A stretch of DNA of 29,239 bases from a virus. The stretch covers positions 1-29,239 of the IMG/VR virus record IMGVR_UViG_3300045790_002671; one strand, 5' to 3'. The stretch's first letter is position 1. Each line of letters starts with the position of its first letter. The notes under the pieces were generated by a model. The model was not told the DNA's origin. It saw only the letters and a list, made by a program, of their open reading frames with translations, and searched no databases. This document shows positions 10,673-26,620 of the stretch, piece after piece. Made by a program: the position numbers and the translations under genes.

Positions 10673-11377
10673 TTATGTTATTATTATATCTATTACGCCT
10701 AATTTTAATGCATCCTTTGAATTGAGATACATATCTGTTTTTATATTTGCATCCCAAAACTTTTTATCTTTATGTGTTTTTGCTTCCAATAAATCATTTG
10801 CCATATTATTAAGATAGTCAAAATACTTTCCGGCAGCTTGAACATCAGATTGTTTACCAGAGGCCATTGATGAGCCTTCATGTAACATAATAGTGCTTCT
10901 TCTGCTAGCCATTCTCTTACCAGTACCAGCTGCTAATATTACTGCTGCTGCTGATAATGCTTTACCTCTACACATGGTATTCATTTTTATTCCTAGATTT
11001 TTATCTAAGCTTTCCATATAATCAATAATGCCAAACATTTCAAAAACATCTCCACCATTACTATCTATAACTAAATTAAGAGGTTCAAATTCTTTATCGG
11101 TGCCTGCATGAAATTTCATTATGGTTCTACACCTTGACATAAAATCATATAAAGCATAATCCTCAATCTCTCCACAAAGATAAATTACTCTATCTTCTAC
11201 GTCAACAGCAAATTCAATTTCCCTATAAAGGTATTTTTTATAATCACTTGGCTGCTTATTAATTATTGAATCAGTCTGAACGGCATTATCATTAATATCC
11301 GTATTTGCAAAAGTACCTTCTTCTAAGGTTTCAATTCTTGGAGATTGGTATTCTTCTCCATATAAATTATCTGTCAT
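10673..11377 (-). CDS. ClpP-like serine protease
   Basis: The protein has 234 aa. After a ~45-residue disordered leader comes a ClpP fold: IYLCGEIEDY, IDSNGGDVFEMFGIIDYM (oxyanion-loop region), GKALSAAAVILAAGTGKR with the probable nucleophile S142, IMLHEGS with H166, and D215 in KTDMYLNSKDALKLGVIDII. The full Ser-His-Asp set therefore seems present. In phages ClpP-fold enzymes often serve as prohead maturation proteases, but no capsid gene is in this window. A free protease that works with host or phage unfoldases is equally possible. The ribosome binding site AAGGAT lies just before ATG. Confidence 0.88.
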   Translation of the reverse strand: MTDNLYGEEYQSPRIETLEEGTFANTDINDNAVQTDSIINKQPSDYKKYLYREIEFAVDVEDRVIYLCGEIEDYALYDFMSRCRTIMKFHAGTDKEFEPLNLVIDSNGGDVFEMFGIIDYMESLDKNLGIKMNTMCRGKALSAAAVILAAGTGKRMASRRSTIMLHEGSSMASGKQSDVQAAGKYFDYLNNMANDLLEAKTHKDKKFWDANIKTDMYLNSKDALKLGVIDIIIT

Positions 11378-14947: not shown

Positions 14948-15532
14948 TTAATAGTGAATTATTGGCGTAGTAAATACAATAGGAACTGATACAGAGCCTA
15001 TAAGCATAGGAATCGGTGGATCAGTACAACAAGTTCCATTACTCCAACCACCTGTTGTACAATCATCTAGGACCTCCATAGATATAGTTAATGGATCCGC
15101 CGAGCATGTTGGACCTACAGTTACCTGAAAGCTCATAGTAAAAGGTCCAGCAGAGCTTGTTCCCCAATCTGGATCAAAGGTATTAACAAATCTCCAACCC
15201 GGTCCGAAATTATAACCACCAGTAAATGTATGCTGTAAATCCCATATCCAATTACCAGTAGAACCTGCAGGATTGCCAGGAGTGGTTATTGGCGTGAGGT
15301 TTGTAAATCCTGGTCCTAAAATAATTTGAAATGCATGTATCCAATTTATATTAATTCCAGTAAATGATTGAAGGGTATATGTGAGTGTAATTACCTGACC
15401 AGGTATAAATGTCCCCAATGGTAATCCAGGTGATGATGTTGGTGTATATGAATTGTTTTGAGTTCCAAGGCAGGGTTGTGACATAGCTGTTAAGCTAAAT
15501 ATAAAACATAATATAAATAATAACTTTTTCAT
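14948..15532 (-). CDS. Secreted beta-rich protein (host-surface type)
   Basis: The protein has 194 aa. Residues 1-18 are a signal peptide (MKKLLFILCFIFSLTAMSQ), with cleavage likely after it. The mature part is rich in Thr, Gly, Pro and aromatic residues and looks like one or two Ig-like or PKD-like beta sandwiches (VITLTYTLQSFTGININWIH; FTMSFQVTVGPTCSADPLTI), with a paired CTTGGWSNGTCC segment near the end. It lacks a type IX sorting domain. The start overlaps the upstream stop by 4 nt. Style and composition resemble flavobacterial secreted proteins. Function unknown. Confidence 0.8.
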   Translation of the reverse strand: MKKLLFILCFIFSLTAMSQPCLGTQNNSYTPTSSPGLPLGTFIPGQVITLTYTLQSFTGININWIHAFQIILGPGFTNLTPITTPGNPAGSTGNWIWDLQHTFTGGYNFGPGWRFVNTFDPDWGTSSAGPFTMSFQVTVGPTCSADPLTISMEVLDDCTTGGWSNGTCCTDPPIPMLIGSVSVPIVFTTPIIHY

Positions 15533-16059
15533 CGTATTAAAGTAACCTTTCTTGTAAATCTATTATTATTAACAAATACACTAACCACATAAACACCAGC
15601 TGCACATTCATCACCCGTCCATGGTATATTTCCATCTGCTTCAAATATCCTATTACCCCATCTATTATATATCGTAATATACTCAATATTATCTGCGGAT
15701 TTACCTCCTACAAAATATGTTTCATTAATGCCATCTTTGTTTGGTGTAAATGAGCTTGGAAAGAATAAAGTAGCGTATGGACATGGGTTTATAACTACTT
15801 GATAATCAGAGGTATCTCCATCACACCCAAACCTAGTCGTAAAAACTGTTATAAGGTAGTCTCCTGCACTATCAGGCCATTGCACGATGATAGTGTTATC
15901 TAGCGCAGAAATTATGTCTCCGCGCGTTATTGACCAATAGTATATTTTATCAGCTTCATAATCAACCTGATAAGATTGTGGTTGTAAAATTTCACAATCG
16001 TTATATGTTTCTTGAGCTAATAAATGAAAGGGTAGTAATATTAATACCCACCATCTCAT
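15529..16059 (-). CDS. Secreted protein with type-B T9SS (gliding-motility-associated) C-terminal domain
   Basis: The protein has 176 aa from the ATG at 16059, chosen because it gives a clean signal peptide (MRWWVLILLPFHLLAQE) and lies 1 nt after the upstream stop; the longer frame from 16095 would hide it. A PKD-like part follows (YYWSITRGDI, IIVQWPDSAGDYLITV). The last ~80 residues match the gliding-motility-associated C-terminal domain: FFPSSFTPNKDGINETYF, ITIYNRWGNRIFEADG, PWTGDECAAGVYVVSV, RKVTLIR. In Bacteroidota this type-B domain sends proteins through the type IX secretion system. A phage gene using the host route is inferred. Confidence 0.9.
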   Translation of the reverse strand: MRWWVLILLPFHLLAQETYNDCEILQPQSYQVDYEADKIYYWSITRGDIISALDNTIIVQWPDSAGDYLITVFTTRFGCDGDTSDYQVVINPCPYATLFFPSSFTPNKDGINETYFVGGKSADNIEYITIYNRWGNRIFEADGNIPWTGDECAAGVYVVSVFVNNNRFTRKVTLIR

Positions 16060-16060
16060 A

Positions 16061-16630
16061 TTAAAAGTGTTGGATTGGACCAGTGATAGGTCCATTATTT
16101 ACGGTTACATTTATTGTAGTATTACATCCAGCCATAGAATAAGTTAATACGTAATTACCAACACCAGTAGATGGTTGAAAGTTATTACCTACAACACCTG
16201 TACCAGACCAGGATCCGCCTGCAGGACTTCCTACTAATGGTGTAGTTGGATCGCCAGGACAAAATGGTCCTAATGGATTACCAGATAGATCTAAAATAAA
16301 TACATCTAGGAGTTGTGGAGCTCCAGGACAACCTGCCGCATTAGATTCTATTACTTCAACTGCATTAGCATAAAGACCAGATACTCCTCCCCAATCTACT
16401 GTAATGGAATTTGTAGTTTGACCTGTTTGTAAAATACCACCACCACCTGTAATCGTCCATTGATAGGTTGATGTAGGAGTGACTGCAACCAAATATTGTT
16501 CTCCTGTTGCATTCAAACATACTGTGTCAGGATTAATTGTTGTTTGTCCAAATGTGAATAAAGACGTTGTCATTAATAGGACTGTAATAAATAGTGCTAG
16601 TAATAATTGTTTTTGTTTGTAGTAATTCAT
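16061..16630 (-). CDS. Secreted PKD-like protein
   Basis: The protein has 189 aa. It has an N-terminal signal peptide (residues 1-29, LLLALFITVLLMTTSLFTFG, cleavage near GQT). A PKD-like domain follows: CLNATGEQYLVAVTPTSTYQ, WTITGGGGI and NSITVDWG, as found in flavobacterial adhesins. A second module carries CPGDPTTPLV, GSPAGGSWSGTGVVG and YSMAGCNTTINVTV. It has no sorting domain itself; the next gene (gap 1 nt) carries it, so the two may derive from one split adhesin or act as partners. It is first gene of the three-gene secreted unit. Confidence 0.85.
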   Translation of the reverse strand: MNYYKQKQLLLALFITVLLMTTSLFTFGQTTINPDTVCLNATGEQYLVAVTPTSTYQWTITGGGGILQTGQTTNSITVDWGGVSGLYANAVEVIESNAAGCPGAPQLLDVFILDLSGNPLGPFCPGDPTTPLVGSPAGGSWSGTGVVGNNFQPSTGVGNYVLTYSMAGCNTTINVTVNNGPITGPIQHF

Positions 16631-16686: not shown

Positions 16687-17544
16687 TTATTTAGGCATTT
16701 CGAATATATAGGTATGAACCAAATTGCCTGCCCTGTTCACTTTCTTACGATATGAACACTCACCCACGTTTGGTTTATCTGCAATTTTATCTTTAAGATG
16801 ATCTAGTCTTGATTTATTTAAGGAACATATTATTAACATGCCATCCATAGATGTACACCTTACTAGGTCGTCATCTAAATTTTCTAATAAGGCACTATTA
16901 AACATATTCTTTACAAATTCATAATCAATCTCTGTCTCAGGAACTATGCCAAATGATTTTAATATATTGATATTAGGAGACCATGGTTTGAATTTTGGTA
17001 TGAGCCTCTTACCACTAACCAGACGCTCCATATAAAAATCAATGTTTTCAGGTTCTAATGTATCAAACCATTTTATGTATTTATTATAATCATTTGAAAA
17101 AATTTCTTCCTTATCAATTGATTTTAATTTTTCCCAAATTAGAGTAGCTATTATTTCATTAGCTTCGGATATCATTTGGGAGTATTGCATTTGTTGATCA
17201 TCATCTAATGATTCAAACCAATCATCAAAATTAAATTCCCTATCTTTAGGATCCCAAAGCTTATCGGTATGTGAAGTCCATTGATCCGTAATAGAATCCT
17301 GATCAGGTAATCTAGGAAAGTGTTTAGGTTCATCAAGTCTTCTAATAGAAGAATCTGGCTTTACTATTTCCTGTCTTTGAAAATCTATAGAGACATCACC
17401 TAAAATTCTATCTCTGGTCTTATCATCAAGCATATCTAAATAATCAAACATTAATTCGTCTGTACAGTTATGGTATTCAAGGTTATACGTTTTATTGTTA
17501 ACCTTGACAACCTTCTTTAGATATGGTGCTACAATTTTTTTCAT
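16687..17544 (-). CDS. Hypothetical acidic protein
   Basis: The protein has 285 aa from the ATG at 17544 (MKKIVAPYLKKVVKVNNKTY). The frame extends to a TTG at 17559, but that codon touches its own GGAGG and lies in the tmRNA coding piece, so I reject it. The protein is acidic with many Asp/Trp pairs (FDDWFESLDDDQQMQYSQMI) and helical. The C-terminus (residues ~225-285) seems a separate alpha/beta unit, with SMDGMLIICSLNKSRLDHLK and GNLVHTYIFEMPK. No catalytic motif. It lies directly downstream of the tmRNA and may share its transcript. Family unknown. Confidence 0.75.
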   Translation of the reverse strand: MKKIVAPYLKKVVKVNNKTYNLEYHNCTDELMFDYLDMLDDKTRDRILGDVSIDFQRQEIVKPDSSIRRLDEPKHFPRLPDQDSITDQWTSHTDKLWDPKDREFNFDDWFESLDDDQQMQYSQMISEANEIIATLIWEKLKSIDKEEIFSNDYNKYIKWFDTLEPENIDFYMERLVSGKRLIPKFKPWSPNINILKSFGIVPETEIDYEFVKNMFNSALLENLDDDLVRCTSMDGMLIICSLNKSRLDHLKDKIADKPNVGECSYRKKVNRAGNLVHTYIFEMPK

Positions 17545-17617
17545 AATAAAAATTTCCAACCTCCACCGGGCTTATACGACTTGCCCTATTAAGTGCCGTT
17601 CGGTTCTGGGTGCTTTA

Positions 17618-17650
17618 TTAAGCCGCCATTGCCATTTCAACATGTTCGCC
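17618..17650 (-). other. tmRNA tag reading frame, GEHVEMAMAA-stop
   Basis: Ten codons from GGC at 17650 encode GEHVEMAMAA, followed by TAA TAA. The end GCTTAATAA is the same as I remember for E. coli tmRNA, and AMAA is a conservative form of ALAA, the signal read by ClpXP-type proteases. The GE start and A-L/M-AA end resemble Bacteroidota tags as I recall them. The resume codon (GGC) is inferred from the tag ending. Confidence 0.8.
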
Positions 17651-17706
17651 TGTTATGCGCGACCTTCCTATATCCTTATCTCAATGTCAATATCCAAGTC
17701 ATCCCC

Positions 17707-17775
17707 ATATTATATGTAATTACATATACTTCATATGCAATTTATTGTATTATATGTTTTCACATATAATCGTTG
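17707..17775 (-). other. Intervening segment of permuted tmRNA precursor
   Basis: These 69 nt lie between the mature 3' and 5' ends and would be removed. They contain a 9-bp hairpin capped by GAAA (17749-17770) and an 18-nt perfect palindrome TATATGTAATTACATATA (17711-17728), both adjacent to the processing points. Confidence 0.75.
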
Positions 17776-17824
17776 TGGAGATGGAGGGAGTCGAACCCTC
17801 GTCCATTTGAGCAGCTAACATAAG

Positions 17825-18091
17825 TCAAGCAGTCGTTTTCTTTTTAAGTATTAGTTCTTTCATACTAACTAATCTTGCACACTTTTCATACGCTTCAATT
17901 GTAATATAATATTCAATCATCGTATCAATTGTTCCTATAGAATTGGCATTAGATAATAACCATGAACCTGGTTTAACCTCATCCATATTTTTATTACCAA
18001 CAAGAAACTTAAATGTGTTATTAACAGCAAGATGTAATAACTTATCATCATCGCTATGTATAGGATCAATATTCATAGGATCCGTCAACAT
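17825..18091 (-). CDS. Small UVR-like repeat-family protein
   Basis: The protein has 88 aa. It belongs to a family within this window that shares a C-terminal motif, here IEYYITIEAYEKCARLVSMK (residues 59-78), comparable to 72-92 of the 21243 gene and 83-104 of the 26300 gene. The motif resembles the UvrB/UvrC UVR helical hairpin (E-x-E-x-A-x-x-L), but that link is tentative. Residues 19-31 (LHLAVNNTFKFLV) also match the 26300 gene. Its tail LILKKKTTA is longer than in the relatives and overlaps the 5' end of the tmRNA acceptor piece. Start 18091 or 18076 is unclear. Confidence 0.7.
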   Translation of the reverse strand: MLTDPMNIDPIHSDDDKLLHLAVNNTFKFLVGNKNMDEVKPGSWLLSNANSIGTIDTMIEYYITIEAYEKCARLVSMKELILKKKTTA

Positions 18092-21242: not shown

Positions 21243-21521
21243 TCATTCTTTCAACTTCATTAATTCAGCACACTTTTCGTATTCCTCTGTTTCTATAAAC
21301 CGCTCTATTAGCTCGTCTATAAGGCCTTCCTTCTCACTTTTCGATCCAGGTAATTCATCTAAATATGCTGGATCGTCTATGATCACCGCATACATCATCT
21401 TACTCCATATATGGCTCACATCATGCAGCTTATCTAGTATATCTTGTGGTGTTATGTCCTCTCCATTTATATTCATATTGATTGTTTTAAGTCGATTTAA
21501 CAAGAGATCTCTTACTAGCAC
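21243..21521 (-). CDS. Small UVR-like repeat-family protein
   Basis: The protein has 92 aa if the GTG at 21521 is used; ATG at 21476 is the alternative start. It ends in LIERFIETEEYEKCAELMKL (residues 71-90, then KE), the same motif as in the 17825 and 26300 genes, with YEKCAEL identical to the latter. The N-terminal part is different (LHDVSHIWSKMMYAVIIDDP). The helix-turn-helix-like spacing of charged residues suggests a UVR-like protein-protein contact module. Function unknown. It precedes no obvious promoter. Confidence 0.7.
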   Translation of the reverse strand: MLVRDLLLNRLKTINMNINGEDITPQDILDKLHDVSHIWSKMMYAVIIDDPAYLDELPGSKSEKEGLIDELIERFIETEEYEKCAELMKLKE

Positions 21522-26087: not shown

Positions 26088-26307
26088 TCTCAAATGCACT
26101 TTCACTATCAATGATCTTCTGCCCATCAAGGACCTTCTGATCACATTCAGCTAATACCTTATCTATTATTCTTTTATGCTCTCTTGTAGGATCATATGCA
26201 CCACCATCGGTTAATGCATTCTGTAATGCTACTCTTACTGATATCTTTGAATATCTTGGATTCCATTTAGGAATCGGTTTACTTTTAGGTCTTCCTCTTT
26301 TAGCCAT
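26080..26307 (-). CDS. Small basic protein with GRPK motif
   Basis: The protein has 75 aa. It starts MAKRGRPKSKPIPKWNPRYS; KRGRPK resembles an AT-hook, which would bind AT-rich DNA minor grooves. A helical part follows (RVALQNALTDGG; IIDKVLAECDQKVLDGQKII) and the end is acidic. The ribosome binding site AAGGAG lies 8 nt before ATG. It overlaps the stop of the 26300 gene by 8 nt. AT-hook function is inferred from a single short motif. Confidence 0.65.
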   Translation of the reverse strand: MAKRGRPKSKPIPKWNPRYSKISVRVALQNALTDGGAYDPTREHKRIIDKVLAECDQKVLDGQKIIDSESAFENE

Positions 26308-26620
26308 TTGTTCTCTCCTTGTATTTAATTAATTCTGCACACTTTTCATATTCTTCTGATTCTATATAATAGTCAACCATCGACTCTATTAACTCATCAC
26401 TATTTACATCATTATGTAAATGTGGAAATTTAGGATTATAATTTTCATCCATCGGATTAAATAATAAAGCCACATCAGGATTCTGATCTATACCTTTAGA
26501 CCTTCCTACCTTCTCCATGAGATTCTCCCATGTAGCTTTACCAGTTAGGATCTTATATGTATTCTCCATTGCGGATCTTAGCATACGCTGATCATTTTCC
26601 ATTTCATCTATTTCTTCCAT
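26300..26620 (-). CDS. UVR-like repeat-family protein, longest member
   Basis: The protein has 106 aa. Residues ~14-34 (MLRSAMENTYKILTGKATWE) resemble the N-terminal part of the 17825 protein (LHLAVNNTFKFLVGNKNMDE). The C-terminal motif MVDYYIESEEYEKCAELIKY (80-99) is the family mark shared with the 21243 and 17825 genes, followed by KERTNG. The middle, with PMDENYNPKFPHLHNDVNSD, is unique. The ATG follows the preceding TAA without gap. Function unknown. Confidence 0.75.
   Translation of the reverse strand: MEEIDEMENDQRMLRSAMENTYKILTGKATWENLMEKVGRSKGIDQNPDVALLFNPMDENYNPKFPHLHNDVNSDELIESMVDYYIESEEYEKCAELIKYKERTNG

Follow-up and report, generated by a model that had tools for sequence, protein, structure and literature searches.

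Does a contractile-tailed phage whose host probably belongs to a phylum with one-piece tmRNA carry its own circularly permuted tmRNA gene and, if so, where did the permutation come from? Permuted tmRNA is known from alphaproteobacteria, some betaproteobacteria and some cyanobacteria, and the permuted tmRNAs described earlier from phages were explained as relatives of these alpha, beta and cyano forms. We analysed a window of 29,239 bases, a linear IMG/VR virus record taken whole, for which an earlier note had proposed such a gene on the minus strand. From our analysis it is very probable that this locus works as a circularly permuted (two-piece) tmRNA gene encoded by the phage, and that it belongs to a distinct group carried mainly by phages of Bacteroidota.

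Read directly from the sequence, the minus strand carries the tRNA-like 3' half first, then a spacer, then the 5' half, and ARAGORN reports the locus under its label tmRNA*, which marks permuted genes. The features are as follows.

17527-17868, minus strand: ARAGORN call of a permuted tmRNA, tag GEHVEMAMAA followed by two stops
17776..17834, minus strand: acceptor piece, encoded first, with the helix-2 strands, GGAC, the T arm, CATCTCC and the discriminator A; its 5' end is uncertain
17831..17834, minus strand: helix 2c, GACT, partner GGTC at 17664-17661; third pair C-G, A-U or U-A
17818..17824, minus strand: helix 2b, CTTATGT, partner ATATAGG at 17673-17667; double changes in 5 of 7 pairs
17807..17811, minus strand: helix 2a, CTCAA, partner TTGAG at 17684-17680; double changes in 4 of 5 pairs
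17804-17801, minus strand: GGAC ahead of the T arm (sequence)
17784..17800, minus strand: T arm GAGGG-TTCGACT-CCCTC (sequence, RF04321); 100% paired in relatives, one double-changed pair
17777..17783, minus strand: 3' strand of the acceptor stem, CATCTCC; 100% paired in relatives, one double-changed pair, U-A to C-G
17776, minus strand: discriminator A (sequence)
17707..17775, minus strand: intervening sequence of exactly 69 nt (sequence), presumably discarded
17700..17706, minus strand: 5' strand of the acceptor stem, GGGGATG (sequence, RF04321, alignment); RNase P would be expected to cut before 17706
17651..17660, minus strand: 10-nt linker GCGCAUAACA from helix 2 to the resume codon, with an AUAA tetramer (sequence)
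17615..17650, minus strand: tag frame (ARAGORN), GGC at 17650 to GCT at 17621, encoding GEHVEMAMAA, then TAA TAA at 17620-17615
17568..17599, minus strand: post-tag H-type pseudoknot, ACGGC (17599-17595) with GTCGT (17580-17576) and GGGC (17586-17583) with GCCC (17571-17568)

The layout given by the earlier note, with the 3' half, a 69-nt spacer and the 5' half in that order, proved right to the base. The acceptor G3-U70, T loop, CTCAA/TTGAG helix 2 and GGAC that it cited can all be read directly, and its tag frame with tandem stops is the one that ARAGORN reports. The 5' half runs from GGGGATG (17706-17700) through ACTTGGATATTGACA to TTGAG (17684-17680); its D arm is degenerate, with TTGA as the D-loop letters. 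The acceptor stem has 7 bp, with G3 paired to U70, and CCA is not encoded at its end (CTCC-A-CAA), where, judging by tRNA anatomy, the acceptor piece would finish at 17776. Two A/T-rich hairpins (TATATGT/ACATATA, twice) lie in the spacer and covary among relatives. The hallmarks of tmRNA are thus present, including the resume context, the stop and a tag ending in AA, and a preference for AUAA before the resume codon has been reported (PMC4236655).

The earlier note had suggested covariance-model searches and folding of the joined halves as checks, and the lack of a significant match to any permuted model would have refuted it; such a match was obtained. In the Rfam search, RF04321 matched over its full length (model 1-213) with 54.4 bits and E = 3.5e-8, above its curated cut-off of 47 bits, and was the sole Rfam match above a gathering score within the window; the standard tmRNA model RF00023 scored 23.7 bits in one search and 35.7 bits in another, both under its cut-off. 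The folded transcript recovered the acceptor, T arm and helix 2, with an energy z of -2.3. Pattern scans of IMG/VR returned close relatives with tags of the form GE[HQ]VE[ML]AMAA plus one GEHVDFAMAA, and across an alignment of ten distinct homologous sequences the structure (acceptor, T arm, helices 2a, 2b and 2c) was 97.1% paired. Pairs changed on both sides numbered 12, compared to 4.9 in shuffles, none of 500 shuffles reaching the observed value, and pairing fell to 40-53% when partners were slid by 1-3 columns. The covariation of helix 2 is the independent part of this result, because some of the acceptor and T-loop letters had been set by the search pattern. In the post-tag pseudoknot, GGGC/GCCC becomes GAAGC/GCTTC or AGGAT/ATCCT in relatives, and own partners are 100% paired as opposed to 50% for swapped partners; the strands of the pseudoknot and of the spacer hairpins were picked by eye, and stem 2 of the pseudoknot carries more weight as evidence than either stem 1 or the hairpins.

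The tag itself varies among relatives as coding sequence does (GEQVELAMAA, GEHVDFAMAA), and the tmRNA is retained among phages whose gp6 identity is only 44-63%. A blastn search of the 4.2-kb neighbourhood against phage records gave no match, and the family pattern was not found in the genome contigs of 84,980 species. Judged by the aligned relatives and by the divergence of the phages that carry it, the locus is under selection as an RNA structure. Although the DNA is AT-rich and RF00023 stays below its cut-off, as might be expected of a chance tRNA-like sequence or a pseudogene, the E-value, the covariation and the conservation across diverged phages leave that explanation hardly credible.

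What would such a gene do? Beyond the anatomy, covariation and distribution that we observed, we infer processing, charging, SmpB use, tagging and a benefit to the phage; for processing, CCA addition, alanylation, SmpB use and tagging we do so because they are established tmRNA biology. One minus-strand transcript would be cut by RNase P before G17706 and trimmed after A17776, the 69-nt spacer would be discarded, and the host CCA-adding enzyme would complete the 3' end. Pairing in the 7-bp acceptor stem and in a helix 2 of 5+7+4 bp would join the two RNAs, and alanyl-tRNA synthetase would charge the two-piece RNA via G3-U70. SmpB was not found in 20 phage records of relatives, and therefore host SmpB would be used; with it, the charged RNA would enter stalled ribosomes and append GEHVEMAMAA to the product, which would then be destined for proteolysis, while the ribosomes would be recycled in the course of infection. 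Such recycling may be what the gene is for when infection damages mRNA, and the phage's own tag may alter the fate of the proteins that receive it.

One element is missing. A pseudoknot, PK1, is usual between helix 2 and the tag in tmRNA, although it does not define the molecule: the tmRNA of Oenococcus oeni has no helix 4 and hence no such pseudoknot (PMC1168896). In the window PK1 is absent: helices 2b and 2c with their internal loops fill all but 10 nt beyond helix 2a, and the window family would have no room for it because only 10 nt lie between helix 2c and the resume codon. This absence could point to a decoy, with a tRNA-like part that ties up SmpB and so inhibits trans-translation in the host, as reported for the tmRNA-like RNA of mycobacteriophage DS6A; phages may gain from blocking host quality control, and a tRNA-like RNA of this sort has been shown to inhibit (PMC4131195, PMC11915505). 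However, a decoy would not need the retained tag frame, AUAA context, stop codon and post-tag pseudoknot, and E. coli tolerates a hairpin or a single strand in place of PK1 (PMC3968760, PMC4236655). We therefore regard a decoy as improbable and a functional tmRNA as the better account of the locus.

The window is, by its gene content, a fragment of a contractile-tailed phage. The earlier note had called it T4-like, in agreement with the baseplate wedge gp6 and gp25-like proteins that place it in the T4 type (PHROG matches). Besides an Hsp20 and a ClpP-like protein, it encodes a PKD domain and the type IX secretion signal domain CHU_C, the latter found above cut-off in three sister phages too. 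The nearest gp6 proteins are those of Microcystis phage Mel-JY01 (47%), an uncultured 484-kb phage (39%) and Flavobacterium phage immuto (38%). A permuted tmRNA is absent from these three nearest annotated relatives, and thus it is not required in this phage lineage. A Bacteroidota host, also suggested by the earlier note, is likely but not proven: with CHU_C in the window and its sisters and a Flavobacterium phage among the nearest three, we consider it quite probable, the main counter-evidence being the Microcystis label of the best gp6 match. A Shine-Dalgarno-like sequence precedes only 10 of 31 genes checked, which fits a Bacteroidota host without proving it.

Bacteroidota themselves use one-piece tmRNA, in agreement with the earlier note. 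RF00023 scored above cut-off in 60 of 61 Bacteroidota genomes, and all 101 ARAGORN calls in genomes found by the GE-tag pattern, nearly all of them Bacteroidota, were one-piece. RF04321 exceeded its cut-off in 1 of 395 Bacteroidota, host counts being made with strict filters that can miss weak matches. This lone locus, a permuted tmRNA of the window's kind, adjoins phage-type DNA polymerase and helicase genes, and the assembly's other tmRNA is one-piece (160 bits). One assembly titled Limnohabitans (G018, locus L212) behaves as Bacteroidota in our phylum sampling, where it draws the genomes that a Flavobacterium draws, and is probably mislabelled or mixed.

Permuted tmRNA in phages is already known, and cases from Bacteroidota phages are already in GenBank. 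Two-piece tmRNA is carried by Methylophilales phage Melnitz and Pelagibacter phage Mosig, and ARAGORN found 53 of 133 unique phage tmRNA structures to be two-piece, 50 of them marine or aquatic (PMC9004378). Melnitz and Mosig resemble our phage as contractile-tailed phages, in their case marine, with a permuted ssrA, but their tmRNAs are alphaproteobacterial in sequence, and Mosig has CCA, TCGA and a 78-nt pre-tag segment (measured from the acceptor GGGG to the resume codon). ARAGORN also finds permuted genes, labelled just SsrA in GenBank, in the crAss-like phages cr10_1, cr114_1, cr60_1 and cr50_1 and in Chryseobacterium phage MA9V-3; RF04321 scores above cut-off in all but cr60_1, which falls below. 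These share with the window the permuted order, the unencoded CCA, a Gly-start tag and a short pre-tag segment (59-62 nt), but differ in unrelated backbones, longer tags and spacers of 60-214 nt, and MA9V-3 has TCGA. Our literature search, thin on subscription journals, found no paper on permuted tmRNA in Bacteroidota phages.

The permuted loci in viral DNA fall into two kinds. After deduplication, 34 combined an unencoded CCA with TTGA and 62 an encoded CCA with TCGA, as opposed to two with unencoded CCA and TCGA (MA9V-3 and L110, which break the TTGA rule) and one with CCA and TTGA; the search pattern admits TCGA and TTGA alike, and the counts include related sequences and so are not independent. 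Tags of the no-CCA kind mostly start with Gly and in a few cases with Asp, those of the CCA kind mostly with Ala; Mosig is an exception, with a G tag and encoded CCA. The pre-tag segment measures 56-65 nt in the no-CCA loci (n=33), with one of 75, as against 77-136 nt in alpha-like loci (n=58) and 77-125 nt in one-piece sequences (n=60, mostly Bacteroidota). PK1 would thus be missing in the other no-CCA loci as well, read there from length alone and in the window family from pairing. On these sequence features, the window's group comprises permuted tmRNAs in phages, mainly of Bacteroidota, and is distinct from the alphaproteobacterial-type group; it is widespread and apparently undescribed so far.

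Several observations touch these loci. Two, on contigs of 204 and 360 kb (L331 and L345), lack an encoded CCA and have TTTTGA, yet carry an alpha-like tag region of the AND type and may be intermediates. In two crAss-like contigs, the ribozyme-associated RAGATH-9 (L125, 116-283) and RAGATH-20 (L127, 228-329) lie within a few hundred bases of the permuted tmRNA. GTTGA upstream of GGAC, considered as a common mark of permuted forms, occurs in 6 of 33 and 11 of 58 loci, too weak a signal.

Where, then, did the permutation arise? The earlier note had left it at an independent permutation or a transfer, and our data narrow this choice: they speak against a recent transfer from the alpha-like kind, whereas a single ancient permutation is a possible origin. 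Had the permuted form been acquired recently from alphaproteobacteria or pelagiphages, the explanation put forward for Melnitz, this would account for the identical layout and for RF04321 recognising both. This model, derived from alpha, beta and cyano sequences (PMC11915505), merges RF01849, RF01850 and RF01851; the window has the same gene order and has in common with it the acceptor stem, T arm, helix 2, the spacer between the halves and the tag after the 5' half. Moreover, marine pelagiphages carry permuted tmRNA and the tag of Mosig (GEDNFALAA) starts with GE, so that a GE tag by itself does not prove an origin in Bacteroidota. Against the same model, however, the window has the hairpin/PK1 region largely deleted, no CCA, TTGA in place of TCGA and a Gly-start tag, and the same differences, with the short pre-tag segment, separate it from the alpha-like kind, Mosig included. 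In a tree of the joined halves, one branch (98/96) separates the alpha-like sequences from the window's group and another (92/96) sets apart the Bacteroidota-type one-piece sequences, with the window's kind between; the tree is unrooted, leaves out beta and cyano sequences and takes as alpha-like an A tag with encoded CCA in viral contigs rather than tested hosts. These branches are what disfavours recent transfer. HMM scoring of the 5' half with alpha-like (A) and Bacteroidota (B) sets places the window family near neither, at -6.7 to +7.9 bits (B minus A) compared to held-out control medians of -57 and +68. Such an acquisition is accordingly unlikely.

Alternatively, the alpha-like form and that of the Bacteroidota phages could go back to a single ancient permutation, followed by spread via phages and divergence. 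A clade of alpha-like sequences and the window family was not rejected by the AU test (p = 0.23, long-branch rows removed beforehand), so that one ancient event may lie behind both, and the position of the group between alpha-like permuted and Bacteroidota one-piece sequences in the unrooted tree is in keeping with it. Yet Bacteroidota hosts are one-piece, and TTGA with a GE-type tag resembles their GE-tag one-piece tmRNAs (TTGA in 32 of 42, a set partly collected by tag). Those one-piece genes also share the TAACTGGCGAA resume context, a GE... tag ending in AA and a mostly unencoded CCA, but they are unpermuted, about 350-400 nt long and have the longer pre-tag segment. We hold the single ancient event to be a possibility, if a doubtful one. 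An independent permutation is likely, not proven, from the sequences compared. Its fuller form, a further independent permutation lineage that arose and spread in Bacteroidota phages (T4-like, crAss-like and others) whose hosts are one-piece, and that is naturally free of PK1, we put forward tentatively, at close to an even chance. The one-piece tmRNA of the huge phage LR756508, a gp6 relative, was considered as an intermediate and shows no sign of being one.

A separate group in phages of a one-piece phylum, if true, would mean that phages hold and spread tmRNA forms that their hosts do not use. The short pre-tag segment offers a natural test of the need for PK1, approached so far via E. coli mutants. 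The group also raises the questions of how a host with one-piece tmRNA could make a two-piece RNA that lacks an encoded CCA, and of what advantage a tag of its own gives a phage.

The tmRNA is flanked by two open reading frames.

17825..18091, minus strand: upstream ORF of 88 aa, whose end overlaps the acceptor piece and which replaces the leader TATATTTATAA of most relatives
16687..17544, minus strand: downstream ORF of 285 aa from ATG, for which a family was sought and none found

A conserved leader similar to TATATTTATAA and followed by TGA, promoter-like, precedes the acceptor piece in eight relatives (L013, L018, L035, L046, L047, L078, L112 and L356); as a window-wide promoter it was rejected, with 9 occurrences found versus 10 expected. 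The upstream ORF and two other small minus-strand ORFs (21243-21521 and 26300-26620) appear to be paralogues, with a common C-terminal motif of the type EEYEKCAELMKxKE, and in L047 an ORF with a similar start follows the tmRNA. Between the tmRNA and the Hsp20 gene, three secreted-type proteins are encoded at 14948-16630 (minus strand), one with PKD_6 and one with CHU_C. The ClpP-like protein (10673-11377, minus strand) has apparent Ser/His/Asp motifs and matches Pfam CLP_protease with 95.8 bits and the PHROG head maturation protease, so that a ClpP-like protein and an RNA for a proteolysis tag occur in one phage.
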